Below are positions 13,013 through 57,962 of a stretch of 64,000 nt of DNA, one piece after another (position 1 is the first letter of the stretch; every line of letters starts with the position of its first letter). The stretch comes from Zygnema cylindricum (lineage: Eukaryota > Streptophyta > Zygnematophyceae > Zygnematales > Zygnemataceae). The DNA lies in contig JBBHKE010001622.1 in NCBI GenBank assembly GCA_037447655.1, forward strand, positions 1 to 64,000, in the 5' to 3' direction. Position numbers and translations under genes: made by a program. The notes under the pieces are model-generated. The model had not been told where the DNA came from. It saw nothing but the letters and a program-made list of their open reading frames with translations, and did not search any database.

Positions 13013-13035
13013 CTGAGTCTAAATATTTAGGGGAG

Positions 13036-14900: not shown

Positions 14901-14925
14901 AAGTGAAGAAGCAGAATTATTCGCA

Positions 14926-17223: not shown

Positions 17224-17246
17224 CCAAGTCTAAAGATTTAGGGGAG

Positions 17247-34710: not shown

Positions 34711-34740
34711 GGTGGCAACGGCGCGTACACGGATTTCGGT

Positions 34741-37174: not shown

Positions 37175-37352
37175 GTTTCGGAGGAGGAGGGTGAGAGGAA
37201 GTAATGAATTTGTTCTAAACGAAACTTTCTTATGGAAGAAGAGGCTTCATCTTTACTTGAGCCACGAGGCTACAGATATGAACAATACATCGTCTCGATT
37301 TAATTCATGTGCAAAGGATTCATCTCCAAGGACAAGGGATTGTCCAGCGCCT
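37175..37352. repeat. Satellite junction segment J3, partial
   Basis: Starts at GGAGGAGGAGGGTGAGAGG and lacks the first ~75 bp and the hairpin of the other J copies. Confidence 0.8.
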
Positions 37353-38140: not shown

Positions 38141-38402
38141 CCAGGGGTTACGAAGAGGGAAAGTGATGGGGGGACGTGCACCTTTATAACGGAGAAGCAA
38201 GCCCGGATCCCAAAAAGGGACGTTGGGGCAAATGCCTACAATCCTTGGTGCACACGCTTTCCTCGCTTGGGGCAAACGCTTTCCAAGCTTGGGGCAAACG
38301 CTTATACATCACTTTTTTTTTTCCTTCTCCCTTCCTCCCACACCTTATGAAAAAGGGCAAATGTGCGTCGGACCGCAAATTGACACGTCAAAAAAAAGAT
38401 AG
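38141..38402. repeat. Satellite segment S1 (TATAA-containing)
   Basis: Contains GACGTGCACCTTTATAACGG, then GCCCGGATCCC, and tandem copies of CGCTTGGGGCAAACGCTTT-like units, then a T-tract at about 38312-38321. Copies: S2 39916-40085 (truncated, rejoining a 159-bp unit after the T-tract) and S3 40596-40862. Confidence 0.8.
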
Positions 38403-39352: not shown

Positions 39353-39602
39353 TTGTTACACTCAAGTAAAAACCACGGATTTTTCTTATGTGGGTTTGTT
39401 TCGTTTTCGAACGAAACAAACCTCATACGGAGGAGGAGAGTGAGAGGAAGTAATGAAATTGTTCTGAAAGAAACTTTCTTTTGGAAGAAGAGGCTTCATC
39501 TTTACTTGAGCCACGAGGCTACAGAAATGAACAATACATCGTCCCGATTTAAGTCATCTGCAAAGGATTCATCTCCAAGGACAAGGGATTGTCCAGCGCC
39601 TT
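39353..39602. repeat. Satellite junction segment J4
   Basis: Copy of J1 with the TTCG-loop hairpin at 39393-39422. Confidence 0.85.
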
Positions 39603-39915
39603 AGGATTCAAAAAGGGAAGTTTTAATTCCCTTCTCTTAAGGCGTACGCCGAAAGCAGTGCCAGCCATGTCTTGGGCCGTCGAGATTCAAGAAGGGAAGA
39701 AAAGTTTCTTCCCTTCTCCCGAAGCCAAGCCGGAGCGCAATGCCAACTAGTCCGGGGCCTTAGGATTTAAGAAGGGAAGTTTTCATTCCCTTCTCCCAAG
39801 GCGTACGCTGGAATCAGTGCCAGCCATGTCCGGGGCCGTCGAGATTCAAGAAGGGAAGAAAAGTTTCTTCCCTTCTCCCGAAGCCAAGCCCGAGCGCAAT
39901 GCCAACTAGTCCAGG
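39603..39915. repeat. 159-bp tandem array, block 4
   Basis: About two units between J4 and S2. Confidence 0.9.
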
Positions 39916-40085
39916 GCCATAGGTTACGAAGAGGGAAAGTGATGGGGGGACGTGCACCTTTATAACAGAGAAGCAAGCCCGGATCCCAAAAAGGGACGTT
40001 GGGGCAAACGCCTACAATCCTTGGTGCACACGCTTTCCTCGCTTGGGGCAAACGCTTATACATCACTTTTTTTTTTCCTTCTCCC
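39916..40085. repeat. Satellite segment S2, truncated
   Basis: Matches S1 up to the T-tract, then joins CCTTCTCCCGAAGCC of a 159-bp unit. The CCTTCTCCC shared by S and the 159-bp unit is a likely recombination point. Confidence 0.8.
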
Positions 40086-40595
40086 GAAGCCAAGCCAGAG
40101 CGCAATGCCAACTAGTTCGGGGCCTTAGGATTCAAGAAGGGAAGTTTTCATTCCCTTCTCCCAAGGCGTACGCCGGAAGCAGTGCCAGCCATGTCCGGGG
40201 CCGTCAAGATTCAAGAAGGGAAGAAAAGTTTCTTCCCTTCTCCCGAAGCCAAACCGGAGCGCAATGCCAACTAGTCCGGGGCCTTATGATTCAAGAAGGG
40301 AAGTTCCATTCCCTTCTCTTAAGGCGTACGCCGGAAGCAGTGCCAGCCATGTCCGGGGCCGTCGAGATTCAAGAAGGGAAGAAAAGTTTCTTCCCTTCTC
40401 CCGAAGCCAAGCCGGAGCGCAATGCCAACTAGTCCGGGGCCTTAGGATTCAAGAAGGGAAGTTTTCATTCCCTTCTCCCAAGGCGTACGCCGGAAGCAGT
40501 GCCAGCCATGTCCGGGGCCGTCGAGATTCAAGAAGGGAAGAAAAGTTTCTTCCCTTCTCTCGAAGCCAAGCCGGAGCGCAATGCCAACTAGTCCA
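40086..40595. repeat. 159-bp tandem array, block 5
   Basis: About three units between S2 and S3. Confidence 0.9.
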
Positions 40596-40862
40596 GGGCC
40601 ATAGGTTGCGAAGAGGGAAAGTGATGGGGGGACGTGCACCTTTATAACGGAGAAGCAAGCCCGGATCCCAAAAAGGGACGTTGGGGCAAACGCCTACAAT
40701 CCTTGGTGCACACGCTTTCCTCGCTTGGGGCAAACGCTTTCCAAGCTTGGGGCAAACGCTTATACATCACTTTTTTTTTTCCTTCTCCCTTCCTCCCACA
40801 CCTTATGAAAAAGGGCAAATGTGCGTCAGACCGCAAATTGACACGTCAAAAAAAAGATAGAA
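40596..40862. repeat. Satellite segment S3
   Basis: Nearly identical to S1 over its full length, including the TATAA-like string and T-tract. Confidence 0.85.
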
Positions 40863-41312
40863 CACTTAGCCAAATTTCGAGGTGTTTCAAACGGCGCGTA
40901 CACGGATTTCGGTACTTGGCCAAATTTGGAGGTGTTTCAAACGGCGCGTACACGGGTTCCAACACTTAGCCATATTTCGAGGTGTTTCAAACGGCGCGTA
41001 CACGGGTTCTAAAACTTAGCCAAATTTCGGGTTCTTGGCAACGGCGCGTACACGGGTTTCAACACTTAGCCAAATTTGGAGGTGTTTATAACGGCGCGTA
41101 CACCGGTTCCAACACTTAGCCATATTTCGAGGTGTTTCAAATGGCGCGTACACGGGTTCCGGTACTTAGCCAAATTTCGGGTTTTCGGCAACGGCGCGTA
41201 CACGGATTCCGGTACTTAGCCAAATTTCGAGGTGTTTTAAACGGCGCGTACACGGATTCCAACACTTAGCCAAATTTTGGGTTCCTGGCAACGGCGCGTA
41301 CACGGATTTCGG
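40863..41312. repeat. 50-bp tandem array, block 4
   Basis: About nine copies of the 50-bp unit. Confidence 0.9.
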
Positions 41313-41562
41313 TTGTTACACTCAGGTTAAAACCACGGATTTTTCTTATGTGGGTTTGTTTCGTTTTCGAACGAAACAAACCTCCTACGGAGGAGGAGAG
41401 TGAGAGGAAGTAATGAATTTGTTCTGAATAAAACTTTCTTTTGGAAGAAGAGGCTTTATCTTTACTTGAGCCACGAGGCTACAGATATGAACAATACATC
41501 GTCCCGATTTAAGTCATCCGCAAAGGATTCATCTCCAAAGACAAGGGATTGTCCAGCGCCTT
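41313..41562. repeat. Satellite junction segment J5
   Basis: Copy of J1 with the TTCG-loop hairpin at 41353-41382. Confidence 0.85.
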
Positions 41563-42130
41563 AGGATTCAAAAAGGGAAGTTTTAATTCCCTTCTCTTAA
41601 GGCGTACGCCGAAAGCAATGCCAGCCATGTCTTGGGCCGTCGAGATTCAAGAAGGGAAGAAAAGTTTCTTCCCTTCTCCCGAAGCCAAGCAAGAGCGCAA
41701 TGCCAACTAGTCCGGGGCCTTAGGATTCAAGAAGGGAAGTTCTCATTCCCTTCTCTTAAGGCGTACGCCGGAAGCAATGCCAGCCATGTCCGGGGCCGTC
41801 GAGATTCAAGAAGGGAAGAAAAGCTTCTTCCCTTCTCGCGAAGCCAAACCGGAGCGCAATGCCAACTAGTCCGGGGCCTTAGGATTCAAGAAGGGAAGTT
41901 TTCATTCCCTTCTCCCAAGGCGTACGCCGGAAGCAGTGCCAGCCATGTCCGGGGCCGTCGAGATTCAAGAAGGGAAGAAAAGTTTCTTCCCTTCTCCCGA
42001 GGCCAAGCCGGAGCGCAATGCCAACTAGTCTGGGGCCTTAGGATTCAAGAAGGGAAGTTTTCATTCCCTTCTCCCAAGGCGTACGCCGGAAGCAGTGCCA
42101 GCCATGTCCGGGGCCGTCGAGATTCAATAA
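41563..42130. repeat. 159-bp tandem array, block 6 (right edge)
   Basis: About three and a half units. The last breaks off after GAGATTCAA, where minus-strand copia G gag begins. Confidence 0.9.
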
Positions 42131-42298
42131 GGGAAGACCAAGACTTGATGGACGCCCCAACCGTCCACTCACTATCCCCCAAAACCTTTTTCCGCATAGA
42201 GCTCCTATCATCATACTTTCCCAGTATATGAAGCCAGTTCCATTAAAGATTGGTACCTTAGAGAGTGGGCCCATAACTTGAAACTCTGAGACCTCCAT
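42131..42298 (-). pseudogene. gag: Copia G Gag N-terminal fragment
   Basis: The minus-strand frame starts inside the LTR (MEVSEFQVMGP), crosses the PBS and reads FNGTGFIYWESMMIGALCGKRFWGIVSG before the satellite cuts it off. It is the same Gag as at 50816-51261 and 59812. Confidence 0.8.
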
Positions 42299-43334: not shown

Positions 43335-44930
43335 AGGAGCGGCTACAGCGGCAGCTAAGTCTGCTTCCGCCTGGAAGACTGCCTCATCAAGGATAGGGTC
43401 TGAAATTTGGATGCTGGGAGCCATTAGGAGAGGTTGTCGCTCCTTATAATCTGCCAAATCGCCACTAGCTGGATAATTTACCATCATTGGGAAAAGCGTG
43501 GTTTTGAAGTCATCCGGAATGGTTCCGCCTTTATATTTGTTGATTTCGGACTGAGTGAAAGATTTCCACAACAATTCAAAATCGGAGGAAGAGATTCCTG
43601 AACTATCTCCTATAAAGATCCTTACGTCACCCATTTCTTTTTCCTCCTCTGCATGGTTGGTGAACTGAGAAGAGGATGGTCTGGTTAGGCTGACAAACTG
43701 AACTTGTGAAATTACCCCTGGATCTGCGTTGTCTGGATCGGGGCCGCCTCCTTCTCCAGTAGAAGGAGCTGCCTGACAAGAGATGCCCCCCCCCCGCCAA
43801 TGAGGAAGTTTCAGCTACCTATGATTTAGCGGAAAAACCTGTATTTCCCTTGGGTTTGTTTCTGGGGAAAGAAGAGACTATTAGCTTGGGAAAAGATGCC
43901 CGAAATTCTGCTCCTCTATACCCAAGAGAGGCTTGCTCTTCCCGGAGTACTGTTTTCACCGAGGGGATATGGATAAGAAGTTTGACCACCGGGGGTCTTT
44001 GAGGTATTGGTGGAGAAAGGGATGGTGATGACGAGGGCTATGAGAAAAAGGCGTCTAACTCCTTGTACGCCTTCTGGAGGCCTCTGGTGGAGGAGTTCCT
44101 TCGCTATAAGCAGGAGAATGCTGGTGAGGAGGAGAGTAGGAAGGGACGTCGTATTTGTATGGTAAGACAGGTGGCCACGGGGACCCATGGACTGCGAGAG
44201 CCGGAGAGAGGGATGGCGAAAGAGAGGATGCCTGAGGTGGTGATGGTGGAGGAGTGGAAAGTCCGAGGCAAATGTGTTGTCTCCGGTCGGGTTGTAATAA
44301 CACCATGGCCTCCGCAGTTGAAGTCCCAGCCACTTAGATAAAAGTAGGACGCTCAGTGGTGGCGGCTACAACATGACCCGGTAGTTTTGCACCCATCCCC
44401 TGTTTGTTAGGTCATGTTGTTTCCCCCCCTTCCCGCTCAAGAGGAGACTCCGGTCTATGTTCCGAGGAAATCCCGGGAGCTTGCGTCTTTGTAAGGGTTA
44501 TTTGCACTGTAGGTTGTCTCTCAGCAGGGGAACCTGTCTCTCTTGGAGGAGCTACCTGTCCACTAAGGATCCCTCCTGATATTCGTCTAGCCTCCCTTAT
44601 GAGGAACAATTCGTGTTCTAGGGCCCTCTTTCTTTCTTCTTCAAGAGCTTCCCAATCTATGATGACGGGTCCAGCCCCCGCTGTAGCTTGACTCTAGGAT
44701 CGTAGGATGTCACAATTCCTGGCCGGTGATTGGCTCATGGTATTGCTTTGACTTTGGTACTATCGTTAGGACAAAATTTGCTTGTATAAGGCACTTGGGG
44801 CCAAGGGAGACAGGTTGCTGTTTCAGTACTGTCTCTTGAGAAAAACCCTTAAAAATTCTAGCAAACTTCCTTGTGGAGAACTTTTGTTTTGCTTGTGATT
44901 GTGACCCTATTGCCATCTTGGTTTGCATCC
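43335..44930 (-). pseudogene. gag: Gypsy H Gag, inverted partial copy
   Basis: On the minus strand the sequence reads a coiled-coil-like Glu/Arg-rich segment (WEALEEERKRALEHE), a Ser/Pro-rich linker (STPPPSPPQASSLSP, ASRRRTRS) and MGDVRIFIGDSSGISSSDFE. It ends after FQAEADLAAA, where the G LTR interrupts it. It is homologous to 45668-46690 on the plus strand but retains about 100 bp and an N-terminal part that the plus copy lacks. Several stops. Together the two copies lie head to head. Confidence 0.7.
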
Positions 44931-45403
44931 GTCCTTTGTGGAAATCGTAGTCCGGTTGGGTGGTTGGCAGCGTCTTTCCTGTTTTGGGCGGTTTGGGGAC
45001 TGGTGTTTGTTGGAAACCAAGAAGGGTCTTGCCGGTTCCGGGTCGCGAAAACCGAGGAGTTAAGGAGGCCTTACCTGTTCCGGGGTTTTCGGGGGGAGAT
45101 TTCGTCTCCTTTTGTTGTCCGCGTTACGTTTTGGGGGTAGGTTGAGCTCGCTTGCTATTATTCCACATTCTACCTTTATTCTCTATTTTTCTAAGGGCAA
45201 GGTGATATTGTTAATTATGAGACAACATTTTTATATTTCTATCCCTTTATTTTTTTGAGTGGAAGTATCCTTGTTCTCTCTTTGGTAGTCCTTTTTGGAG
45301 CTCCGGTTAGGTTTCTTCTGGAGTCGATTACCAGAATCTTTTATACCAAAATAATGGATTTTGAGAGGATCTTTGTTAGGCTTTCAATTGACCGTCACAA
45401 CTA
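44931..45403. other. Unassigned spacer between head-to-head gypsy H copies
   Basis: No recognisable coding domain or copy elsewhere in the window. It could hold the 5' leader or LTR of the minus-strand copy, since it lies immediately upstream of that gag, but it does not resemble the H LTRs at 45404 and 56607. Confidence 0.4.
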
Positions 45404-45664
45404 AAATCAAGAACTCTGCTTCATTACCAAGAGTCCCATACCTTTACCCCGGCCCCATGGGGAAAGGAGGGGGAGGAGATCTCTTTTCGCCCTCCCCAAG
45501 CACTCATCCCCATTTTTGCATGCATCCTCATGGGAACAAGGCAGGCAGCAGTGGGCATAGGCATTGTTGTGGGAAGCATACGCATTCTGGGGGGGGTTGG
45601 TTGCAGGACTCCAATGCCCATTTACCTATGCAGTGGGCCTTCTTCTGATGATTTCCAACACGCT
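45404..45664 (+). repeat. Gypsy H 5' terminal repeat
   Basis: AAATCAAGAACT, CCCCATGGGGAAAGG, TTTTTGCATGCAT and GTGGGCATAGGCATTG occur here and in the same order at 56607-56865. The start does not show a clear TG, and the end is only approximate (near CACGCTC). No PBS is visible, consistent with the deletion just downstream. Confidence 0.7.
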
Positions 45665-45667
45665 CAA

Positions 45668-47832
45668 CACCTCTTTAGCGAGAAGGGGGGGAAACAACAA
45701 GACCTAAAAAGCAGGGGATGGGCCGTGGTGTTATTACAACCCGATCGGAGACAACACATTTCCCTCAAAATTTCCACTCCTCCACCATCACGACCTCAGT
45801 CATCCTCTCCTTCGCCATCTGTCTCTTTGACTGCCGCAGTCCAAGGATCCCCGAGCCCACCTGTCTTACCATTCAAATACGATGTCCCTGCTTACTCTCC
45901 TCCTCACCGGCATTCTCCTTCTTCCAGCAAAGAAACTCCTCCTCCACAGGCCTCTAGAAGGCGTACAAGGAGTCAAACGCCTTTTTCTCGCAGCCCTCAG
46001 TCATCTCCATCCTATTCTCCACCAATACCTCAAAGACCCCCGGTGGTCAAACTTCTTATCCACAACCCCTCAGTGGAAATAGTACTCTGGGAAGAACAAG
46101 CCTCTCCTGGGTATAGAGGAGCAAAATTTCGGGCATCTTTTCCCAAGCTGATAGTCTCTTCTTTCCCCAGAAACAAACCCAAGGGAAATACAGGTTTTTC
46201 CGCTAAATCATAGGTAGCTGAAACTTCCTCATTGGCGGGGGGGGGCATCTCTTGTCAGGCAGCTCCTTCTACCGGAGAAAGAGGCGACCATGATCTAGAC
46301 GACGAAGATCTAGGGGTACTTTCACCGGTTAAGTTTGTCAGCCTAACCGGACCATCCTCTTCTCAGTTCACCAACCTTGCAGAGGAGGAAAAAGAAATGG
46401 GTGACGTAAGGATCTTTCCGGGAGATAGTTCAGGAATCGCTTTCTCAGATTTTGAATTGCTATGGAAATCTTTAACTTAGTCCGAAATCAACAAATTTAG
46501 GGGCGGAGCCATTCCGGATGAATTTGAAACCACACTTTTCCCAATGATGGAAAATTATCTTGCTGGTGGCGCTTTGGTAGACTTTAAGGAGCGACAACCT
46601 CTCCTGATGGCTCCCTACATTAAAATTTTAGACCGAATTCTTGATCAGGCAGTTTTGTAGGCGGAAGCAGACTTGGCTGCCGCTGAAGCTGCTCCTATCA
46701 CAACCCTCTTCACAGAGGACATAAAACTGCATGCAGAAGGACGAGCCTATGGCGCTCAGCTTCAAGCCATCAGAGGAGCCACTTGGATGGCTGCAGACCC
46801 AACCCCCTGTACCACTCTTTTGAATGCCTAGAGACTCTTTTACAACGAAAGAAATGAATCTACTATGAAAGAATTTATGGAATTCCGTTGCCAAAAGAGT
46901 GAAACTCCCCAGACTCGTTTAAAAGATTGTCTAGCCTCTGTCAAAAGACCAAACTATCAACAATAGATCTCACGGCAATGGCAACCAAATACCTCATCGC
47001 GGTCCGAAATTCGTTTAGACCCACGGGGCAAACTGCCCTCGATAATTGGATTGTTGGATACGCCATCCAGGATGTCAATCCAACCGCTAAAGAAATCTCG
47101 CTGGCCGCAATGAAGCTTTATGATCACTTCGTCCATAGAGAGGCCCAAGAAAAAACGGTTACCGGCAAAACGAGAGGGAATTTTGCAGGATTTGCCGGAG
47201 AAATGCCTCCGTATAATGAAGAGTCAGCCAAACTCTTAGCTTTGCGGAAGCTCAAGGGGAAACAAGTGGCGGATAATGGATCCGAACCCGCCACGGGGGC
47301 CGATGACAACGTCTTCCTATACAATTGTTTGAACAGGCAACAAACAGGACATGGATGGAAGCGCTGCCTTCGGAAGCTCAAACTCGAATTAGCTCTTAAG
47401 CAAAAGGAATGGGAGAAGCAGAGAGTTGAAAGGACCAAGAGGCATCAAAAAAGGAAACAAGGAGGAGGAGCGGACGACAAAACTTCGGTTAACAAAGACA
47501 ATTACCGTCCGACTCCACGATCCGAGACTGCAAAAATGTCGCAAGCCATGTTGCGACAGATTACACTTCCAAAATTTGATGACGCGCAAATCTCCAATGA
47601 ATTAAGGGGCAAATATACTACTGAGGGCTCCAAGTGTGAGGCTTGCGGTATCATGGGTCACAAGGAAGGGCAATGTTTTCGAAAGAATCGGGTCCCGAAA
47701 GAGATGATGCAATATGCACCGTTTACAAGTGAAGGTGAAACTGTCGTGAATCCTCTCCCGCTGCAGCTTTTTTACCCTTGGGGACGTCACACCCTGGAAA
47801 ACCAGGAACGACAGCCCATAGGTCAAGCATGA
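45668..47832 (+). pseudogene. gag: Gypsy H Gag
   Basis: A Ser/Pro/Arg-rich region (45740-46210) is followed by MGDVRIFPGDSSGIAFSDFE (46398 on) and a long Gag region with stops at 46480, 46658 and 46829. From 46927 a 301-codon open frame has a helical segment (AMKLYDHFVHREAQEK), a degenerate first knuckle (CLNRQQTGHGWKRC), a Lys/Arg-rich stretch (EKQRVERTKRHQKRKQ) and a good CCHC knuckle, CEACGIMGHKEGQC, near 47635. In the family Gag packages the RNA. Stop at 47830. Confidence 0.7.
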
Positions 47833-48660
47833 CTAACCCCGGAGATTATAATCGAACTGTAGTGCCAACAGATGGTCGTTATGGCTATAGAATTGGAAGC
47901 CCTGCGATTAGGATCACCCTCTAGGACTCCTACTCTGATGGCCGCCCAGAAACTAAACTGGAGAAATCAAGAGTTATTACAGAAGCTGGCGGAGCTTGAA
48001 CAGGAAACCGCGGCGGGCGAAGACGATGACGAGGTGATGGGGTGGGACATGGAACCTCCTAAAACACATTACGCAAAAACCTTTTTTTTTGGAGCCTGGA
48101 ATGTCGGTGTGGGAGACAATCGCAGTCAGCTTTGTAACTCAACCTCGCCGCATAGAAGAGACAGGCAAAAGCTAACTCCACGAGACCACAACGGGAACGC
48201 TACTGGACCTTTGTCCTTTACCCCCAGGGTCGTCATTCTGAACGACAAAATAAGTCTCGGAATTGAATCCACAAACCGCCTCCACCAGCCGCAAAGAAAT
48301 TGCCTCCCGGATTCGAAAATTACAGGACAATTAAAACGAGGGAGATGGAAGAACAAGCAAAAGAGGAAGAAAGCGTGATAACCTAGACTTGTTCGAAAAT
48401 TATTTGGCTGAGCGCCCGCAGGATAACACACCAAAAACGCCGCGAGCACCAGAATTTGACCAGGAAAGTGAGGAAGCAAAGGGGGGGGGAGAAGGAAAAA
48501 CAATCAAAGGAACCAGCAGATTCCCCAATTTCTTCGCCAGAAATTCAACATCCTTCCTCCAAACCAGCAGTGATGTTAGTAAGGCATCTAATGCCCTACG
48601 CCCTCACCCATGTGAAAACACTTGCCTCCTCCCATAACTTGCCGGAGGAAGTTCTCATGT
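47833..48660 (+). pseudogene. Gypsy H linker between Gag and protease
   Basis: A 168-codon frame (47872-48378) has a coiled-coil-like LNWRNQELLQKLAELEQE and a basic end (RGRWKNKQKRKK). A second frame at 48389-48662 is Glu/Lys- and Pro/Ser-rich. I recognise no domain. The position matches the variable gag-pol linker of gypsy elements, and frame changes show decay. Confidence 0.5.
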
Positions 48661-49477
48661 AGGCCCTCGGAGAGGAAATTCATTCAAGAGGGGAGAAATA
48701 CCGGGCTAATCAGGCTAGATCCGTTTTTTGGTCAGTAGACCCAAAGACACCTATGATGGATAGGGACTACAAAACGTTATCTGTGGCGCTAATCCTCAAC
48801 CAGACAGGGAATTTCAAACTCAACGGATACGGCGGGTATTAGGACGCAGTTGTTGATACAGGAGCACTCCTAAATCTAATCACCACATCAGCTCTGTAGC
48901 AAATGCCTAAAGAACTCCGACCGGAAATCTGCCCCAATGATATCTGCCTTAAGTTTGTTAGCAGTGGGAGCGAGCTGTTACACGTAATTATCAAAGCTAT
49001 GTTAATCAAGTTCTCTGATGACGGAGGTCTGAAGATTTGAATTCAGCTTCCCTTCCTGGTGGTGGAAGGTAAACAGTTTGAAATTTTATTGGGAATGGCC
49101 ACCTAGACAAGGGTGAATATGGGATTAAGTGTGTGGAAGGAGCAGTATACCGTTCGGGATCTTGAGGATCCGGAAGGGGTCAAGGTGGTGGTCCCCCTGG
49201 ATCTATTGAATAGGGGGAATAACAATGCTCCCCTAGACGGATGTTATCTTGTCTATGCCACCCATACACCAACAAAACTGCTCGCCAGCGCCACCGATAT
49301 CGCAGACGTGATATAGCAATTACTTATTTCCAAGCGGTGGGAAAAGGGATACCAGAACAGATTGTTACAGATAACCACACTTCGGCGAAAAGTGGACCAA
49401 TCCTTGACAGCTGTTTTTGCCAAGGAAAAAGAACCTCGGTCAGAATCTCCGGAAGTTCCGCCCGAAAATCAAAAATA
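48661..49477 (+). pseudogene. pol: Gypsy H retropepsin-type protease
   Basis: DAVVDTGALLNLIT near 48845 is the aspartic protease active-site motif (DTGA), followed by VSSGSELLHVIIKAML and FEILLGMAT, the flap and the ILG-like end motif. Stops lie at 48841, 48898, 49038 and 49105. After the protease come LEDPEGVKVVVPLDLLN and an acidic/basic linker up to the nested copia insertion. Confidence 0.7.
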
Positions 49478-49482
49478 CAATC

Positions 49483-50506
49483 TGAAACTCTGAGACCTCC
49501 ATAAGTCCTCAGAGTGGACAGCTTCCAAGAAGCCTGTAGGATAATCCTGACCCCATTATGTTTCAGCAAAAACAACCGCCACCTTGGCAGACAAAAACTT
49601 TGACCACCTGCACCCTTGTGAAGGTAAGACTCTCTTGAGTTGATAGCAAAAAGAATCTCTAAATTTGCTCCCCTGAGCAGTAAGTTATGGAGGGTCAAAG
49701 TTGACCTTTTGTACAGAAGCTCTCTAGGAGAGAGGGTCCTATCTACCAATTTTTTCCAATCATATTACACTGCCGTACATAAAAGTACAGCTGCCGGTGT
49801 ACTTTCTGTACGAATATTGTAGGACATGGCCTAAATGTCGACACATGTCATATCCGGATTCGGTCCCGTAATCCTTAGAGATGTCGCGATCCAATGTAGT
49901 TGTGCCACGTGTCATCCGATGTGACGATGACCACAAACCGCCGAGATTCTCTTCCGCGATCACGTCATCCTTCTCGGCCGTCCGATTGAATGCAAATTTC
50001 AATCGTAGCTGTCATAAATACTTGCGCGATATTTGTTTCGTTTAAAGAAACAAATGCATGGTACTCGTTTCCTATCCAATCTGTAATCCGTACTTTTACA
50101 TAACTTAATCTATGTATCTTGTAAACAATGCCTTTAAATGAATTATCCTACGTGGCAGTATTTAAATAATTAACAAACCCTATAACATGTAACTTTAGTC
50201 CTAGACGTAATGGATAAGGCTACCGGCTACCGGTGGCTTTATCGGACGGCAAGTACCACAATTTAATCCTGGATTTGACAGCTTTTCCTTTTAGTAAAGA
50301 GAGTACCAATCCGTAAATCAACTAATCTATTTTCCCGTAAACCTCTGGATAGCCTAGGTAGCCATGGCTCTAGCTTCCTCTCCAACTTTCAGTAAATGCA
50401 ACAAGTGTGGGAGTTGAAGAGAGGAGTTAGAGGCAGACTGCCTCGACTTCTTTTCTACATTATATTTTAGATCTAGAAAATACTAAAAGAACCATCAATT
50501 TCTACA
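49483..50506 (-). repeat. Copia G LTR, 3' copy of nested insertion
   Basis: Runs on the minus strand from TGTAGAAATTGATGG to CAGAGTTTCA. It has the GTAC-rich hairpin at about 49773-49812, CCACGTGTCATCC, and the tRNA-like module at 50210-50280 (TACCGGCTACCGG, AATTTAATCCTGG; the most degraded of the six). Confidence 0.85.
50210..50280 (+). other. tRNA-like module, antisense within G LTR (copy 4)
   Basis: A-box-like GGCTACCGGCTACCGG is kept, but the B-box-like part is reduced to CACAATTTAATCCTG. Same position and orientation as the other copies. Confidence 0.45.
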
Positions 50507-50815
50507 CTAAGCATGAGTTTAAATGCTCTAACTAAGCAAGATTGGGAAGCAGCTAAAAGAGTCGTTAGATATCTCATAGGGACCACATCTATGGCTACAT
50601 TTGGGTGGGAACAATACTGACATCACCACTTGGAGTGATTCATGCTATAGGAATGCTATTATGAGGAGATGCATGCCTGGGTATGTGTCCTATGTGGGTG
50701 ATGGGGCTTGCTGCTGGAGTAGCAAACAACAAAAAGTCATTACTCAATCCACCACAGAGGGTGAGTACATGGCCTCTTATTCTGCTGTAAAATAATTAAT
50801 GTGGGTTAAGTCCTT
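50507..50815 (+). pseudogene. pol: Copia G RNase H fragment, inverted inside the nested element
   Basis: The plus-strand reading gives SLNALTKQDWEAAKRVVRYL, TTWSDSCYRNAIMRR, GYVSYVGDGACCWSSKQQ and TTEGEYMASYSAVK, a copia RNase H closest to that of copia E. It lies opposite to the gag and LTRs around it and ends at LMWVKSLL, where the minus-strand gag begins. Confidence 0.75.
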
Positions 50816-51261
50816 GCTAAGTGAGCGGATGCCCTTTCTACCTGCAAATGAGGACATGCAAGTCCTTGAGTGAGATGGCGTAGGATGAAGTGCTTTGCCG
50901 CCATATTGTTGAAGTCCCAGGTTTCAGTATCATTCTCCTCGTTCCTCGGAATAGGTGATATGAATGCCGAACCAGTTGCTATTGGTGTGGTCGTCTCCTT
51001 CTCCTTTCCTTTGTCCACCACCTCTCCTTCTTTTGTTTCCTCCGTTGAAGGTGGATCTTCTTTCCTGGTGAATCTGCTTCCTCCAAACCCTGGAGGAATT
51101 CCAAGACTTGATGGACGCCTCAGCCGTCCACTCACTATCCCCCAAAACCTTTTTTCGCATAGAGCTCCTATCATCATACTTTCCCAGTATATGAATCCAG
51201 TTCCATTAAAGATTGGTACCCTAGAGGGTGGGCCCATAACCTGAAACTCTGAGACCTCCAT
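50816..51261 (-). pseudogene. gag: Copia G Gag N-terminal part (nested element)
   Basis: Starts in the LTR (MEVSEFQVMGPPSRVP), with FNGTGFIYWESMMIGALCEK, RRPSSLGIPPGFGGSRF, an acidic TEETKEGEVVDKGKEKE linker and MAAKHFILRHLTQGLACPHL. The frame is intact for about 148 codons and is truncated near 50816 at the inverted RNase H piece. Confidence 0.8.
51230..51241 (-). other. Copia G primer-binding site (nested element)
   Basis: On the minus strand GGTTATGGGCCC directly follows the LTR end GAGTTTCA, a perfect 12-base match to the anticodon-arm type site seen in copia B. Confidence 0.85.
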
Positions 51262-52290
51262 AAGTCCTCAGAGTGGACAGCTTCCAAGAAGCCTCTAGGA
51301 TAATCTTGACCCCTTTATATTTCAGCAAAAACAACCGCCACATAGGCAGACAAAAACTATGACCACATGCACCCTTGTGAAGGTAAGACTCCACTGAGTC
51401 GATAGCAAAAAGAATCTCTGAATTTGCTGCCCGGAGTAGTAAGTTATAGAGGGTCAAAGTTGACCTTTTGTACAGAAGCTCTCTGGGAGAGAGGGTCCTA
51501 TCTCCTAATTTTTCTAAGTCCTATCTCTCTCACAGACTCTATCTACTGATGTACGGAACCAATCAGAACACTGTTCCGTACGTAAAAGTACAGCTGCCGG
51601 TGTACTTTATGTACGAACATTGTACGACATGGCCCAAATGTCGACACATGTCATATCCGGATTCGGTCCCATAATCTCCGGAGATTCCACGATCAAATGT
51701 AATTTCGCCACGTGTCATCCAATGTGGCGATGGCCACAAACCGCCGAAATCTTCTTCCGCGATCTCGGCGGTAATTCCGGCCGTCCGATTAAATTCGGAT
51801 TTAATCGTAGCCGTAATAAATACATGCGCGGTATTTGTTTCAATTACGAAACAAATGCGCGGTATTGATTTTTCGTCCGTACCGTACTTCGTACATTATA
51901 TATTACTGGATCTATGTATCCCGTAATCCATTACAGTTAAATGATTTATCGTACGTATACATATTTAAATATACATCAAACTATATACTACGTAACATTA
52001 ATCTTAGAGTTAACGGCTAAGGCTACCGGCTATTTCCTGTCTGCCGGCCGGTAGGTTCAAGGATCAATTCCTGTCGCCTGCACATACCTTTTAAATAAAT
52101 AAACCCTAACTAATATAAATTTCCCGTAAACCTCAGGATAGCCTAGGTACCCATGGCTCTAGCTTCCTCTCCAATTTCTCAGTGACTGCGACAAGTTTGA
52201 GAGTTGGAGAGAGAAGTTAGAGGTAGACTGCCTCGGCTTTTTTATTTCTTTTCAGACCTAGAAAATACTTTAAAACCATTAGTTTCTACA
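51242..52290 (-). repeat. Copia G LTR, 5' copy of nested insertion
   Basis: 1049 bp from TGTAGAAACTAATGG to CAGAGTTTCA (minus). It has the GTAC-rich hairpin at about 51577-51615 with CCAATCAG (ATTGG on the LTR strand) next to it, and the tRNA-like module at 52013-52083. Confidence 0.85.
52013..52083 (+). other. tRNA-like module, antisense within G LTR (copy 5)
   Basis: AAGGCTACCGGCTA, then GGTTCAAGGATCAATTCCTG, a B-box-like T arm. TGCCGGCC precedes it as in copy 3, but the closing strand is CGCCTGCA. Confidence 0.5.
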
Positions 52291-52295
52291 CAATC

Positions 52296-53340
52296 GACTA
52301 GTGGTGTCATTATATATCTCGGATTCAGAACTCCGGATATTATTTCTATTTTCTGGAATAAGCTCAGACCTAGAATCTGTCTTGAAAGTTGGATATAAAG
52401 TAGAGTCATATGTGGCCGTGGAAATTTCATCGGAAGCTCGGGCTGACAGTGAACACCGACTACAACAACTCCACAAATTGTATCTCCATCAACATCTAGT
52501 ATCCGCCATCTGCAGATCTCAAGAGAGTGTCCCACAAAATATAGATAATATCCTGAAGCCTCATCTTGCTATGTTGGAGCGAGTAGATTTGGTGATTGCA
52601 GGATGGCCATGTCAAGGATACTCTCTAGCAGGGAAAGGTGAGGGACATCGGACAGCAGAAGTCGAACCTTCTTCTAGATGATCAAATTAATTTCCTGGCC
52701 GCAGCAGTCCCTAGACACACCAGTGGGGTAGGTTTTGCAGAATGTTGACCCGGGTGATGAGAAAAGAAAACAAGTCGCCAATAGCTGGAATAAAGTCAAG
52801 CAGATTTTAGGAGCTCCACTTGTTTTCGATGCAGTGCAACTGGGATCCAGGGCTCACAGAGTTCGAGCGTACTGACCAATTTGATACCTTTGTCAGTCCT
52901 AAACAAGCTTTTACAGAACTATAAAACGGATCCCCATATTACTCTGCAACACATTTTAGGTTCAGGACGAATGGCCACTCCAGTAACTAAGGCTGATTAT
53001 CCTCCGTTCTTCCGGTGCAACCAACCAGAAGCACCACGGCGAGCTCTACCAACCTTGGTTTCCTTCCCCAACAGCCATACATATCGAAAGGGAGCAGCCG
53101 GAATGACATTTGACAGTGGAATTGGAGTTTGGACAACGCCAACGGTCGAAGAACGAGAACAAGCCATGGGATTCCAACCTGCCAGCACGGCGGCACGAGG
53201 TATTTCAGACCTCTAGGGGTGCAGCCTACTCGAACAGAGCATGGATCTAAATGTGATACATGGGTGTTAAAACATTCTCTGGCCTTCTCTAGTCTATATT
53301 CTCTATAGTCAAGGGCTAGCTACCTTCAAGCTCTAAAGTT
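52296..53340 (+). pseudogene. Gypsy H C5-cytosine DNA methyltransferase domain (DNMT3-like motifs)
   Basis: Motif I is LFLFSGISSDL (FSG at 52349-52357). Motif IV is VDLVIAGWPCQGYSLAGKG with the catalytic Cys codon at 52610-52612. After a frameshift and stops, motif VI reads QNVDPGDEK (52738 on), with Gln for the usual Glu of ENV. The motif VIII region is FDAVQLGSRAHRVRAY (to 52872), then TGA where Trp is expected; AHRVRAYW resembles AHRARYFW of DNMT3 enzymes. The C-terminal frame has WTTPTVEEREQAMGF (motif IX-like) and LLEQSMDLNVI (motif X-like). In the family, such enzymes transfer a methyl group from S-adenosylmethionine to cytosine in DNA. It lies between protease and RT, within pol, and this copy cannot be active. 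Confidence 0.85.
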
Positions 53341-53580
53341 GTTAGCGATTCAGGCCCACTTGCAGCTTGAGGGGGGGAGGGAGGCAAAAAAGCAGTTTTT
53401 ATCATCAAAATTTTCCAATCTCAACAATTTACCAAAATTAAGGAATTCCTCAATTGGGGGGGAGCGGAGGCTCGGAGGGGGACAACTGGGGGGAGCGAAG
53501 GCTCGGAGGGGGACAACTTAGCGGTAGTTGTTAGCAACAGCATTCTGACGGGAAGAGGGGAGGTAGACTCACAGGTAGGG
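53341..53580 (+). other. Spacer between methyltransferase and RT with G-rich tandem repeat
   Basis: A ~31-bp unit (GGAGCGGAGGCTCGGAGGGG and flanks) is present twice at about 53456-53518, each with a run of six or seven G. No domain is visible. The rest is a degenerate linker. Confidence 0.6.
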
Positions 53581-54290
53581 TTTGAATTCAATATCTCTCG
53601 CTGGGGTAGACCCCTGGAGGTGTGGGCAGCGGTTGAATCCGCAAAGATGTATTGGACTTTAGGGGAGCAGTTGGACCCTCAACAAAAGGCCCGGCTCTCA
53701 AACCTGTTGGAGAAGAACAAACCGGTGTTCTCCTAGTCAAATATCGATGAATGGTGCAGGAAAGTACCAGACTCCATAAAGTTGCGTCCCCAACCGTTCT
53801 CCCATCCAAGAAGGACTCTTCTGGGAAAACGGTAGACTTTCGGATGTTTGGAGACTACTATATGCTTAACACAGCAACTCTACCTGACCGATACCCAATG
53901 CTTACCCCGGAAGAGATTTTTGACTCGCTGGCCGGGGCCACCATTTACTCCAGGTTAGACATGAAGAATGGGTTCCACAAGATCGCCATGGAGCCAAAGC
54001 ACTGGGAAAGGACAGCTTTTTGGGAAGGGTCCAAGTTCTGTTAAAGGCTCTACATGCCGTTCGGGCTGAAGAATACACTAGCCAAATTCCAACGTGCCAT
54101 GGACGAGGCGCTCCGAGGGATTGACTATGCACGGTGCTACGTCAACGATGTTATTATCTTCTCGAAAACCTTCGAGGAACACTTGGAGCACATACATATT
54201 GTACTCAGGGCTCTCTAAGCAACGGGCTTGAAATGTCACCCGGGAAAGGGAATTTTTGGGGTGCAGAAAATTATTTACCTTGGCCACGAT
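53581..54290 (+). pseudogene. pol: Gypsy H reverse transcriptase
   Basis: LSNLLEKNKPVFS precedes RT, then VDFRMFGDYYMLNTATLPDR, YPMLTPEEIFDSLAGATIYS, RLDMKNGFHKIAMEPKHWER and MPFGLKNTLAKFQRAMDEAL. The catalytic motif reads CYVNDVIIFSKTFEEHL near 54150, Asn in place of the first Asp of YVDD, which would abolish polymerase activity. Stops at 53734, 54042 and 54217. Spacing matches Ty3/gypsy RT. Confidence 0.85.
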
Positions 54291-54930
54291 GTTACCTCGG
54301 GACAGTGGGTTCCCATATGGTCAAGGTGGCAGCTCTTGATATCCTTCCCCATCCTCAGTACGTCTCTGCACTTCGCATGTTTTTAGGCTTGGCTTACTAC
54401 TATCGGAGATTCATCCTTGAATTTAGCAGTCATGCACAGCCTTTGAACCAGTTGTTGGGGAAAGACCAGGAATGGCAGTGGACGGAGGAGCAACAAATTT
54501 CCTTCCAATTTCTGAAGGATTCCCTTAAGCAACACCCTGTGCTTCGAATGCCCGATCATCAAAGGTCGTTCCTACTTTACATGGATTGGAGCCGGATTGG
54601 ATTGGGAGCGGTTTTAGCTCAACTGGATTATGCAAGGGCTGAATACTGTGTTGCTTACGCCAGTAGAAGTAACAACCGAGCGAAGGGGAATTGCAACAGC
54701 TACCATGGGGAATTAATGGCGGCTGTTTGGGCCATCCAACATTTCAGACCATATCTTTACTGAGTTCATTTCACCCTAATCACGGATCACCAACCTCTTA
54801 AGTGGATTATGGAGAACAGTAAGCTAACTAGCAAGCTCGCCAGATGGGTGTTAATACTGCAAGAATATGATTTCGACATAATCAACAAGGCCGGAGAAAT
54901 CCATAGAAATGCCAACGGACTTTACTGAAA
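54291..54930 (+). pseudogene. pol: Gypsy H RNase H
   Basis: Open frame with LRMFLGLAYYYRRFILEFS, AQPLNQLLGKDQEWQWTEE, LLYMDWSRIGLGAVLAQ (usual DASxxGxGAVL), YASRSNNRAKGNCNSYHGEL and AIQHFRPYLY to a stop at 54761. It continues as TLITDHQPLKWIMENSKL and NANGLY to about 54930. This is the standard connection and RNase H region of gypsy elements. Confidence 0.85.
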
Positions 54931-55164
54931 TCATGACCCTTCCACCAAGGATTCCACCGAGCCCTGCACGATGAGGATCCCGAAATCAGTTTGGGACTCA
55001 TTCGAGCTTCCTCTGCCTTCATTTGGCTTCCTCAATCTGGGGGGGAATCGTCAACTTTCTCTGCGGACGTGGAGGGTCAGGCGTGGATAGGAGCCGGACG
55101 GAAAGATATTTGGAATGATCCCGATGCACTTTAATCTATCCAACAAGGTTTCCCTCTTCCGCAT

Positions 55165-56405
55165 TTGTCGCGAGTGCCGTTATCACGGGTGCAAACACAA
55201 ATGGCGGCATACGAGTGGGAAAGGGGCATCTTAATCCGGAAGTGGGCAGATGGGGCGAGGAAAGTGGTTCCTCCCCCGACCGACAAGGAGACTCTTAATT
55301 TTAACCTTCACCAGCAGTGTGGCCGTTTTGGGCAGAAACGGACCACCTCCTTGGTCGTAGGATCGTACTGGTGGCACGGGTTGCGAACCCAAGTCAACCA
55401 GATTGTGCAGACGTGTTCCCCCTGTGACCGAATCAAAGCATCTTTCGACAAAAAGGGAGGTGCTCAGCTTCATTCCCTTCCCATCAGGGAATGTTTTATC
55501 GGTGGTCTCTAGATTAGCTGGGTCCTCTCCCCACTAGCAGACGAGGGAAACATTTTGTATTGGTAATGATAGAGCATTTTTCCAAGTGGATCGAATTGGT
55601 GGTCTTACCCAAGAAGGAGTCTAAGGCGATTGCGGACGCATTCTTGCAGAGAGTGCTGGCCCAATTTGGGGCCCCAGCCCCAGTTCAGACCGATCAGGGT
55701 TTTGAATTTGCGGGAGAATTCTCCAACTTGTTGGAATTGTGCCTCATCGACCACCGGCTAACCAGCTGAGACCACCCACAAGCCGACGGTTTGGCCGAAA
55801 GGTGCGTCCAGATAGTGAGGCGGCCACAGCGTAAATATGTTGTGGAAGAGGATCTAGGAGAGTGGGATAGAAGGGTGCCTTTGATCCCCATGGGGTACCA
55901 ATTCAACAAGTAAGCACCCCTCCACTCCTACAGTCCATATTTCATTTTGTTCGGACAACATCGCATCCTCCCCAGCGCTGCCTTGGCCCTAGCAGTGGTC
56001 CTTCTGAAGATGGACAGCAAGGGAACGGTCGAAAAATTGATTGGCGACAGGGCCAAGATGTTTCACACGGAAATGCCTATGGCCATGGGGAATTTACAAG
56101 CAGCTCAACACCGAGATCAACTTTGGTATTCGCAACGCCGGAGCGGGATTTTTGTACCGCGGCAACGACGATTTCTGTCTGGGGATTTCGAGTATCGGAT
56201 GCAACAGAAAAAGGACACTCTGGACATTTCGGCGGGACGGTTGATCTTTAAAGTGGTAGAGTCTTCCAATAAGGGTGTCTTGACATTGAAAGGAAAGGAC
56301 TGTCAAAAAATCAAGGAAAATCATATCAATGTAGCTCCTTGTCACCTCCGGGGATTAGAAGACGAGCCTACTTTCCACCTCATCTATTTTGCTGATCCAC
56401 CTTCA
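55165..56405 (+). pseudogene. pol: Gypsy H integrase with GPY/F-like module
   Basis: The H2C2 zinc module is LHQQCGRFGQKRTTSLVVGS...CSPCDRIKA (second His changed to Arg/Gln context). In the core, HFSKWIELVVLPKKESK is followed by VQTDQGFEFAGEFSNLL (second Asp) and HPQADGLAERCVQIV (Glu), with stops at 55510 and 55767. From 55947 an open frame has SPYFILFGQHRILP, RSGIFVPRQRRFLSGD and FKVVESSNKGVLTLKGKD...HINVAPCHL, a GPY/F-like module. A PHD finger follows in the same frame. Confidence 0.8.
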
Positions 56406-56549
56406 TGTTCCTCCAACTGCCTCTCATCCTCCTCTCAGAACCCTTTACTGGTCTGTGACCGATGTGCCCAGTGCTGGCATCAGACCTGCCTCCCCTTATC
56501 TTGGGACCCTCGTCCTAAACCCTCTTCACCTTGGTTTTGTGGGAACTGC
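56406..56549 (+). CDS. PHD finger at the C-terminus of gypsy H integrase
   Basis: Residues 154-201 of the frame 55947-56564 show the C4-H-C3 zinc pattern: CSSNC, LLVCDRC, CWHQTC and WFCGNC, with the conserved Trp two residues before the seventh Cys and the hydrophobic LL before the third. All eight zinc ligands are present and the frame is open to the natural stop, so this is the best-preserved part of the element. PHD fingers commonly bind histone H3 tails. It lies where chromoviruses place a chromodomain, which suggests a targeting role for integration (inference). Confidence 0.85.
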
Positions 56550-56595
56550 GAATTGGGCAAGTAATTTTTTTTTTATGTCTTAGTCACGGTTGACT

Positions 56596-56609
56596 AAGAG
56601 GGGGGGAAA
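56596..56609 (+). other. Gypsy H polypurine tract
   Basis: AAGAGGGGGGGAAA lies directly before the 3' terminal repeat, after the integrase stop. All 14 bases are purines. Confidence 0.8.
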
Positions 56610-56865
56610 TCAAGAACTATGCTCTAATAACAAAATTCCCAAACCTTCCCTCCTCGGCCCCATGGGGAAAGGAGGGGGAGGAGATATCTTTTCTCCCTCC
56701 CTAAACACTCATCCTTATTTTTGCATGCATTCTCATGAGAACAAGGCGGGCAGCAGTGGGCATAGGCATTGTTGTGGGAAGCATTCGCATTCTGGGTGGG
56801 GGTTGATTGCAAAACTCCAATGCCAATTACCTGGGCAGTGAGCCCTCCTCTGATGTTTTCCGGCA
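56607..56865 (+). repeat. Gypsy H 3' terminal repeat
   Basis: Homologous to 45404-45664, starting AAATCAAGAACT directly in the polypurine tract and ending near GGCACGCTC. The right boundary is blurred because the adjoining minus-strand gypsy RNase H begins there. Confidence 0.7.
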
Positions 56866-57962
56866 CGCTCGTCAAACCTCGGCTGTGTTTGAAGATACTG
56901 TAGGCCGTGGTGATCGGTGATGATCGTGATCCGCTTCCCTTGAACTTATTATTTCCAAACCTCCAGCTCATTAATAATGGCGATTGTCTTTTTTTCATGG
57001 GTGGCCCAGTTAAGCTCCGCTGCCTTTAGTTTCTGACTGTCGTAGGCAATGGGTTAAAGGCCTTTTCCTTGATCTTGCATAAGGATCGCTCCAATAGCCG
57101 TATCGCTAGCGTCGGTGATTATCGTCAAAGGTAATTCCGGGTCGGGGATAGCTAACACAGGGGCGGTAACCAACCGCTCCTTTAGCGTTTCAAAGGCTGC
57201 CCCTTGCGCCGTTTTCCACTCATAGTGCACGTTATTTTTAAGTAATTATGTGAGTGGTTCAGTAATTTTTGTAAAACCTTCGACAAAACGGCGATAGTAA
57301 GAGCATAATCCAAGAAAGCTCCATAACTCTTTAAGGTTTGTCGGCTGCGACCACTCCTTCACTACCCTAGTTTTGTTGGGATCCACTAGGATTCCATCCT
57401 GGCTGACTACAAGACCGAAAAACTCAAATTTTTCCTTCAAGAAGTCAAATTTACTTCTCTTCGCGTACAACTTGTTCTCTCGAAGGACTTGTTAGACCGT
57501 TTGCAGATGCTATAGATGATCCTCAAACGTCTTGCTATACACCAAGATGTCGTCCAAGAAGACAATTACGAAAGCGTCCAAATATTGCCGAAAGATGGAA
57601 TTCATGAAATGCATAAAGGTTGTCGGTGCGTTGGTCAATCCGAACGTTATAACCTGAAATTGGAAATGACCGTACCGAGTTCTAAATGCTGCCTTTCCAC
57701 ATCTTCCTCGGTAATTCTGATTTGGTGATAGCCACTTCGCAGGTCTATCTTCGAAAAATATTTAGCACCTCGTAGTCGATCTAACAATTCGTCTATTCTC
57801 GGTAGAGGGTACGTATTTTTCACCGTTAACTTGTTTAGCGCTCGGTAATCCACACACATCCGAAATCCTTCATCCTTCTTATTTACAAAGAGGACGGGGG
57901 CACCATAGGGTGACTTGTTCGGTTCGATTGCTCCGGCTTCGACCAACTCCGCAAGTTGCATT
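56866..57962 (-). pseudogene. pol: Second Ty3/gypsy (I) RT-RNase H fragment
   Basis: Minus-strand reading: [60 protein letters not shown], a frameshift near 57660, then [20 protein letters not shown] with intact FLDD. FEFFGLVVSQDGILVDPNK and LWSFLGLCSYYRRFVEGFTK follow, and the RNase H parts TIITDASDTAIGAILMQ and RITIITDHHGLQYLQ. This is a different, chromovirus-like lineage from gypsy H. It starts abruptly at 57962 against a copia D piece. Confidence 0.85.

Follow-up and report, generated by a model that had tools for sequence, protein, structure and literature searches.

A predicted DNMT3-type cytosine methyltransferase within the Pol of a Ty3/Gypsy retrotransposon family in Zygnema cylindricum

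A genomic parasite that is silenced by DNA methylation, yet codes for a de novo methyltransferase and keeps it functional over time, poses a puzzle. This puzzle is raised by an element in a stretch of 64,000 nucleotides of Zygnema cylindricum (contig JBBHKE010001622.1, hereafter the window), in which a first-pass annotation had placed a C5-cytosine methyltransferase (MTase) between retropepsin and reverse transcriptase (RT), inside pol. The questions are thus whether the domain belongs to the element, which class of enzyme it represents and what it could do there. The annotation had pointed to retrotransposons with captured MTases in a charophyte alga and in dinoflagellates, and indeed the concept is known since 2018, when KnitGypsy-Dnmt3 of Klebsormidium nitens was described by de Mendoza et al. 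(PMC5890265).

The window copy and its family in the genome

The window element is, with near certainty, a decayed copy belonging to a large Ty3/Gypsy family, of which young open copies exist and whose Pol comprises aspartic protease (PR), DNMT3-type MTase, RT, RNase H, DDE integrase (IN) and PHD finger. This is also the 5' to 3' domain order of the window copy. Its features are the following, with percentages referring to sibling copies (L numbers) of the same genome unless stated otherwise.

44712..45242, plus strand: fragment from the 3' part of A, a terminal repeat of the family, 73% to the A repeat of L003; over about 44714-45029, also plus strand, 94.6% identity to A of L046
45404..45665, plus strand: repeat B, 5' copy (first reported as 5' LTR), 78-80% to B of L046
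46903..47832, plus strand: gag segment, no Pfam match, in which a zinc-knuckle-like motif was read by eye, 75% to L003 and 85% to L046
48663..49289, plus strand: PR segment, 66-90% to L003, L004, L012, L013, L018, L045 and L046
49483..52290, strand not assigned: nested retroelement between PR and MTase, LTR-like repeats at about 49479-50507 and 51238-52291
52292..53258, plus strand: DNMT3-type C5-cytosine MTase, pseudogenised (PF00145; family assigned via siblings)
53790..54350, plus strand: RT, frameshifted and stopped, 79% to the RT of L003
54479..54883, plus strand: RNase H (PF17919, E 4.8e-27), 88%
55258..55961, plus strand: integrase, H2C2 zinc finger and core (PF17921, E 7.4e-11), 78-84% to siblings
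56325..56558, plus strand: C-terminal PHD finger after the integrase, as first annotated (PF00628, E 1e-6), 72%
56607..56870, plus strand: repeat B, 3' copy, immediately past a G-run, 86% to 45404-45665

The MTase was recovered in two ways, which together confirm its annotated place inside pol. Firstly, the open segment 52283-52681 reached 22.4 bits with PF00145 (cut-off 22; E 9.4e-5). Secondly, an intact sibling MTase used as query returned three frame pieces (52292-52651, 52642-52872 and 52821-53258). The MTase alone contains several stops and changes frame at least twice, and the window copy is dead. It is also old, and a 2.8-kb insertion divides it. Inspected by eye, this insertion (49483-52290) has TG...CA ends, an apparent 5-bp duplication CAATC and a Copia-gag-like ORF on the minus strand. 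In L045 and L046, the closest copies among those fetched, PR adjoins MTase; the insertion entered later than the Gypsy copy that hosts it. The repeat structure of the window copy is rearranged, and the A fragment lies outside the B pair spanning 45404-56870. Ordinary LTRs at 45404 and 56607 were replaced by an A/B repeat reading, in which both are the family's B repeat only.

Intact, recently moved relatives are present elsewhere in the same genome, whose assembly also holds plastid psaA fragments and one LHCII gene that indicate, by PDB entries, no more than a green-lineage host. There are 1714 candidate MTase copies, and all of the 129 that were scored were significant. The family includes an open polyprotein of 2395 aa, and siblings show the order PR, MTase, RT, RNase H, IN, PHD. 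In L001, L003 and L004 the MTase frames are open and intronless, and in L001 the A repeats share 99.9% identity. Copies L001-L020 were taken from PF00145 matches, many for their long open frames, and L021-L040 are stop-free matches.

Could a host DNMT have been inserted by chance into one Gypsy copy? Nothing beyond the decay of the window copy speaks for this. In an unfavourable sample, 20 RT copies were picked by eye, without scripted comparison, because no MTase had been noticed for them in the scored list; 17 nevertheless carried MTase sequence in its slot, several of them only a piece, and 3 had no MTase match. A chance insertion, which the first-pass annotation would have concluded from absence of the MTase in all other full-length copies of the family, is excluded by these 17 copies and the 129 scored ones, runs counter to the relatives in other taxa described below, and has a negligible probability. 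That the MTase is no chance insert also follows from the 2395-aa polyprotein.

A test for purifying selection had also been proposed. The median dN/dS of the MTase was 0.22 over the type A pairs with usable dS (91 of 276), comparable with RNase H of the same loci, and 0.146 over the 34 pairs with dS above 0.3; rows with stops were omitted, as were the doubles L045 and L046. The MTase is therefore under purifying selection, although its median over all 91 pairs does not fall under 0.2, the bound published for the Ka/Ks of the KnitGypsy-Dnmt3 MTase (PMC5890265).

Class and motifs of the methyltransferase

By sequence and fold, the domain is classified as an unpermuted DNMT3-type MTase. When sibling MTases were ranked against the structure database (PDB), DNMT3 came out best (6e-22), followed by HhaI (9e-10), DRM2 (8e-9), DNMT2 (1e-7) and DNMT1 (0.05). 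In the fold comparison, all 50 matches listed were DNMT3 proteins or complexes of them. Motif I lies upstream of motifs IV, VI and VIII. DRM enzymes are circularly permuted, and the permutation typical of them is absent from the family's MTase. A DRM or DNMT1/CMT identity was thus ruled out by PDB ranking and motif order, and the DNMT3-like character suspected from the window is borne out by the siblings. With host DNMT3/DRM the family's MTase shares the DNMT3 catalytic core and the motif order; ADD, PWWP and UBA domains were not listed in the six frames of sibling copies that were profile-searched.

At the residue level, the catalytic Cys and Glu are kept in all 55 aligned retro-MTases and the motif VIII arginine in 54 (stop-bearing rows were omitted from alignments). 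Motif VI reads QNV in the window and ENV or ENI in the aligned siblings. After motif VIII follows a conserved stretch, ALPTLVS...SHAYR, which falls outside the DNMT3A alignment. The residue before the motif-IV Cys is more variable: Pro in 28, Glu in 23, Asp in 3 and Ser in 1 of the 55 sequences, with Pro in the window copy and in the aligned type A rows; open copies of type A read PCQ and those of type B ECQ. Because Glu, Asp or Ser replaces Pro in 27 of 55, activity may differ, and the natural PC/EC variants offer a probe of the catalytic loop.

These repeated changes could also mean that the domain catalyses little or nothing and is retained because Pol needs it for structure or for binding of DNA or RNA. 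The K. nitens enzyme fits such a role, having had no detectable activity in yeast, a result that its authors regard as inconclusive; SymbioDIRS-Dnmt3 enzymes do methylate CG in yeast (PMC5890265). However, binding would not require the catalytic Cys and Glu or the motif VIII arginine, which are nearly invariant here, and we consider such a role unlikely.

Relatives, layouts and known systems

Relatives of the MTase-bearing element were found in Marchantia, Closterium, Haematococcus and metagenomes, and two pol layouts occur among them, PR-MTase-RT versus RH-MTase-IN. The read-through of the window copy matched only two metagenome proteins in a set of 5.8 billion, and intact siblings as queries gave 22 matches each in protein searches; none of the protein-search matches bears the label K. 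nitens. One relative, P0046, is Copia by RVT_2. It served together with DNMT3A as outgroup in the tree, which held no green host DNMT3; trees were built with 12 MTase rows of the own genome, the window copy being left out. With these two outgroups only, layout I as one clade is compatible with the data, not demonstrated (p-AU 0.61). The "distinct lineage" of the first-pass annotation is supported in altered form: the genome contains at least two lineages (types A and B) inside a wider green-lineage group with two pol layouts.

Likened by description, KnitGypsy-Dnmt3 and the Zygnema family have in common a Gypsy Pol, an unrearranged intronless DNMT3-type domain and purifying selection. Its repeats have, as here, a DIRS structure (Fig. 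4 legend; A-coding-B-A-B in the Fig. 1 legend of PMC5890265). In contrast, a PHD finger is present in the Zygnema element and has 0 occurrences in the main text on KnitGypsy-Dnmt3, and the relevant passages and Discussion of that paper do not contain the integration ends, the target duplication, the two layouts, Marchantia, Haematococcus or the motif-IV change. SymbioDIRS-Dnmt3 also has a DNMT3 domain in Pol and split direct repeats, but uses a tyrosine recombinase, whereas the Zygnema family has an rve + H2C2 integrase (PMC5890265). The authors of PMC12344493 mention that members of DNMT3 lie within DIRS elements and within LTR elements called 'Copia'; unlike these 'Copia' elements, the window element is Gypsy by the order of RT, RNase H and IN. 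The parts considered of PMC12477816, PMC9033089, PMC6453930, PMC9861306 and PMC10538959 hold nothing on an MTase-bearing Gypsy family. Among titles and abstracts searched, mostly outside subscription journals and without Haematococcus as a search word, no such element from Marchantia or Haematococcus appeared. Against these sources, the spread, the two MTase positions, the recurrent motif-IV Pro-to-Glu change and the integration ends look new. The phenomenon is not one alga's oddity, being abundant, recently mobile, present from chlorophyte to liverwort and in two layouts. It provides replicate systems for asking what retrotransposon methylation is for.

Possible role of the methyltransferase and the element ends

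In copies of the family, C/T differences are over-represented at CG and CHG sites, a methylation-like footprint. An element-specific footprint was sought, and a similar excess was seen in the window's Copia repeat, which has no MTase; methylation of the element's own or neighbouring DNA, as hypothesised in the first-pass annotation, thus gained no support from this comparison. One could argue that, once integrated, the element supplies MTase in trans to flanking or sibling DNA, limiting harm and copy number, and that the PHD finger selects the site. The abundance of the family and its footprint would agree with such restraint, and PMC5890265 considers that transposition might be slowed to the benefit of the host. 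The recent amplification of L001 and the equal footprint of the Copia repeat go against it, leaving it only a small chance.

As best mechanism we tentatively infer methylation of the element's own cDNA, to which we assign slightly less than an even chance. Pol would be packaged together with the element RNA, and the MTase would methylate cytosines in the freshly made double-stranded cDNA prior to its integration. The PHD finger, predicted from its Pfam match and generally directed to histones, would anchor the integration complex at chromatin with a given histone H3 state. Each new insertion would then arrive marked like the host's methylated DNA and pass as self, or else the cDNA would be protected. 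A pure shielding of cDNA from deamination or host nucleases, without self-marking, was proposed by APOBEC analogy (PMC5890265) and seems quite improbable to us. Taken as a whole, the explanation that covers the identity of the element, its mechanism and its ends is probably the right one.

Regarding the ends, young copies combine the split-repeat order A-coding-B-A-B, which is DIRS-like, with a DDE integrase and TG...CA ends. The arrangement is complete in L001 and L017, and its tail was seen in L003, L005, L012 and L046; in L006 and L009, B2 was not found downstream of A2. In the open frames of L001, L003 and L004, rve and H2C2 integrase domains were detected and no tyrosine recombinase (Phage_integrase, E up to 0.01). 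Target duplications were scored in the four copies read at both ends, leaving out L002, L005, L006 and L009. A 4-bp duplication was present in two, TTGG in L001 and CCCC in L017, and absent in L003, which has a composite tail, and in L012, where the 5' A matches the 3' A at only 80%. The junction motif CGACAGC|TGTCA occurred in 9 of 22 loci scanned.

Split repeats, TG...CA ends and the 4-bp duplication lead to a concrete, testable model of replication and integration, in which the integrase cuts the B|A junction of a circle or joint cDNA; we hold it as plausible, with somewhat less confidence than cDNA methylation. Reverse transcription would make a B-A terminal repeat, B starting from the G-run and A ending before the coding region, and the B-A ends would join in a circle or joint form. 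The integrase would then cleave the palindromic junction, with loss of two bases, and insertion with a 4-bp duplication would yield A-coding-B-A-B.

A more far-reaching joint reading, which we find doubtful, would assume an old green-lineage Gypsy clade with a selected DNMT3 that was relocated within pol, from the PR-RT to the RH-IN slot, or captured twice by sister lineages. Ordinary LTR-end integration would have been abandoned for cutting of the internal palindromic B|A junction by the DDE integrase, thus DIRS-like without a tyrosine recombinase. The task of the MTase would be to methylate that circular or joint intermediate, and the repeated motif-IV Pro change would reflect an altered catalytic mode.

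The element and its sibling copies

The decayed Ty3/Gypsy element of the window carries a DNMT3-type C5-cytosine methyltransferase (MTase) between PR and RT, with the parts listed here.

Parts of the element (positions in the window)
44.7-56.9 kb: extent of the decayed Ty3/Gypsy element
46903-47832: gag
48663-49289: PR
49483-52290: 2.8-kb TG...CA insertion between PR and MTase, duplication CAATC read by eye
52292-53258: MTase
53790-54350: RT
54479-54883: RNase H
55258-55961: IN
56325-56558: PHD

The MTase is interrupted by at least two frame changes as well as stops. The Pfam match to PF00145 suggested by the first-pass annotation was obtained above the cut-off, but it is only borderline (E 9.4e-5, 22.4 bits against 22), so that the identification of the domain leans on sibling copies. 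In the nearest copies fetched (L045 and L046), PR directly adjoins the MTase with nothing between.

Searching the 352.8-Mb assembly, in which the window is contig 1217, with the window MTase gave 1714 candidates, of which 129 were scored, all with E <= 2e-99, such counts being lower bounds; most of the scored copies cover the whole domain and a part of them are stop-free. Twenty 10-kb loci (L001-L020) were picked from PF00145 matches. PR lies 5' of the MTase in all twenty and RT downstream in 18 (exceptions L013 and L014), while a PHD finger is visible in 13, the remaining loci being truncated or running off the fetched piece. These loci fall into two lineages, the window-like type A (8) and type B (12); MTase identity between L003 and L001 is 42%. 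Locus L001 holds a single open frame of 2395 aa with Pfam MTase, RT, RNase H, IN, PHD and a weak zinc knuckle, its PR being recognised through likeness to the related protein P0003, in which Pfam detects a protease. This is the order PR-MTase-RT-RH-IN-PHD that was to be sought in intact copies. Open frames running from MTase to PHD measure 1520 aa in L003 and 1525 aa in L004, and in both the PHD match is below the Pfam cut-off.

An unfavourable sample was also drawn, consisting of 20 RT copies among 150 listed, chosen with no MTase noticed among the scored copies. Their expected MTase slot contained MTase sequence in 17 cases, several with just a piece, and none was found in the other 3. Together with the 129 scored copies, this speaks against a lone chance insertion, the alternative raised beforehand, and for an MTase belonging to the family. 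One type A RT copy, G000:C961:71761-72375 (-), lies inside a 5743-aa open frame whose MTase slot has only a 44-aa MTase piece.

Other features were observed along the way. Inverted 0.98-kb gag-side copies, 89% identical (window 43335-44310 and 45721-46696), bracket the A and B repeats, in the manner of two elements that met head to head. A satellite block at window 34713-42137 has tandem units of ~158 bp and ~50 bp and a CpG o/e of 1.04, against 0.57 for window 1-34000. Copia-like copies (by eye), repeated and up to 96.8% alike, occupy window 3539-18207. Elsewhere in the assembly, light-harvesting (PF00504) genes form dense arrays on contigs G000:C519, C2590, C1116, C610 and C1077, the last two with weaker matches.

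MTase class, selection and methylation footprint

Regarding the MTase class (METHYLTRANSFERASE), an eight-MTase profile placed DNMT3C/A/B on top (6e-22 to 3e-16), far above HhaI (9e-10), DRM2 (8e-9, permuted part), DNMT2 (1e-7) and DNMT1 (0.05). The single L003 MTase matched DNMT3A at 1.3e-14, in an alignment spanning motif I to beyond motif VIII. Its predicted fold (mean pLDDT 79, 21 sequences; values under 50 in the catalytic loop and at residues 235-252) gave DNMT3-protein entries for all of the 50 matches listed, with TM 0.58-0.66 on the query. Altogether this upholds the DNMT3-like character first noticed by eye. In an alignment of 55 retro-MTases (12 of this genome, 42 further Gypsy and one Copia; window copy left out), with motifs numbered in the conventional way, the motif IV Cys and the motif VI Glu are present in 55/55 and a motif VIII arginine in 54/55. 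Immediately before the Cys stands Pro (28 sequences), Glu (23), Asp (3) or Ser (1), and the tree requires at least 8 Pro/Glu changes.

Purifying selection on the domain, for which a test had been suggested, is borne out by dN/dS. In the case of type A, 24 stop-free MTases gave 91 of 276 pairs with dS 0.05-1.5 and a median of 0.22 (0.146 over 34 pairs with dS >0.3), and type B gave 0.167 from 2 of 15 pairs only, values that the choice of stop-free sequences may bias downward. The most similar type A pairs showed higher dN/dS. Per domain, from 1-8 pairs each, long loci gave for MTase, RT, RNase H and IN 0.26, 0.09, 0.31 and 0.13 in type A, and 0.12, 0.05, 0.11 and 0.07 in type B.

In copies 3-8% apart, CG and CHG sites showed C/T differences about twice as often as CHH sites did.

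C/T differences by context
L003/L004: CG 54/1061, CHG 66/1426, CHH 87/3799
L009/L010: CG 41/1294, CHG 30/1055, CHH 47/3618
Window Copia repeat: CG 11/263, CHG 18/567, CHH 29/2107

By this excess the element copies appear to carry CG and CHG methylation, presumably host-derived. The CG excess was not seen in the distant pairs L005/L006 and L005/L009, and L001/L002 are near-identical, with too few differences for comparison. Since the Copia repeat, in which no MTase was found, has an equal footprint, the element pairs and window repeats gave no sign of a mark peculiar to MTase elements. Two other window repeat pairs lacked the CG/CHG excess, and the window B pair is too short. Setting aside a long Euglena polyprotein, an LHCII gene of the assembly scores highest against Physcomitrium entries, followed by land plants and then Chlamydomonas, which in combination with the CHG-type footprints suggests a streptophyte host; the psaA fragment is closest to Chlamydomonas entries.

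Relatives and two pol layouts

Two protein searches with 22 matches each yielded 44 relatives (P0003-P0046). By their labels, the named ones come from Haematococcus lacustris (P0021), Closterium sp. NIES-54 (P0024) and Marchantia polymorpha (P0027, P0029, P0040, P0044), a land plant that is not a tracheophyte; the others lie on metagenome or unnamed contigs. Classed by where the domains sit, 11 have layout I, PR-MTase-RT, the order of this genome (the Closterium and Marchantia proteins, P0003, P0004, P0022, P0025, P0026 and P0028), and 32, Haematococcus included, have layout II, RNase H-MTase-IN. Where RT lay outside the sequence, whichever of PR, RNase H and IN was present set the layout. In quick trees, layout II makes up one side of a branch for the MTase (97, SH-aLRT); in the RT tree layout I forms a clade (99), with P0033 apart from the rest of layout II. 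RT and MTase are therefore concordant on the main split, and the MTase domain would have been either relocated within pol or captured twice.

The remaining relative, P0046 (ENA contig), is a Copia polyprotein by RVT_2. Its DNMT3-like segment (798-1101, 26% identity; motif IV SPEC, motif VI IECV), for which Pfam lists no PF00145, branches outside the Gypsy MTases (98) and was apparently captured independently, by an element of another superfamily.

Repeat structure and integration

MTase-carrying retrotransposons had been reported earlier, as the first-pass annotation stated: PMC5890265 describes KnitGypsy-Dnmt3 of K. nitens and three dinoflagellate families, and PMC12344493 mentions DNMT3 within LTR and DIRS elements. 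For the K. nitens element, PMC5890265 states that its repeats have a DIRS structure, and L001 and L017 likewise read A-coding-B-A-B, where A and B are the two repeats of the family.

Repeats of L001 (contig C1344)
85514-86444: A1
94719-94980: B1, after the coding region
94981-95910: A2
95912-96154: B2, 99.6% identical to B1

In L001 the two A copies share 99.9% identity; the B copies of the window element share 86%. L001 has TTGG at both flanks and ends in TGTCA...GACA; L017 has the same repeat order, with B2 equal to B1 across 191 bp aligned and CCCC at both flanks. A target duplication was absent in L003 and L012, the other two of the four copies read at both ends. B2 also follows A2 in L003, L005, L012 and L046; for L006 and L009, where it was not found, the tails fetched are possibly too short. 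B2 starts at, or immediately past, the G-run lying ahead of B1 or at its opening.

The B1|A2 junction CGACAGC|TGTCA occurs once each, near the 3' end, in 9 of 22 loci longer than 5 kb (L001, L002, L005, L006, L008, L009, L012, L017 and L046), against a chance expectation of ~0.03 in 219 kb. It also occurs in a stretch next to L003 and is absent from the window. Inspection by eye of the sequence following A1 showed no tRNA-like primer site. Possibly, reverse transcription would produce a B-A repeat, the element ends would then be joined together, and the palindromic B|A junction would be cut by the DDE integrase, with GC dropped.

Two further arrangements were observed. L016 has the type B repeat A at both ends in opposite orientation (104-897 and 9031-8245). 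In L003 (C1374:31376-35681), 3.8 kb of unexplained sequence separates the first B copy from the B-A-B tail, and this first copy terminates in GACA, as an integrated end would.
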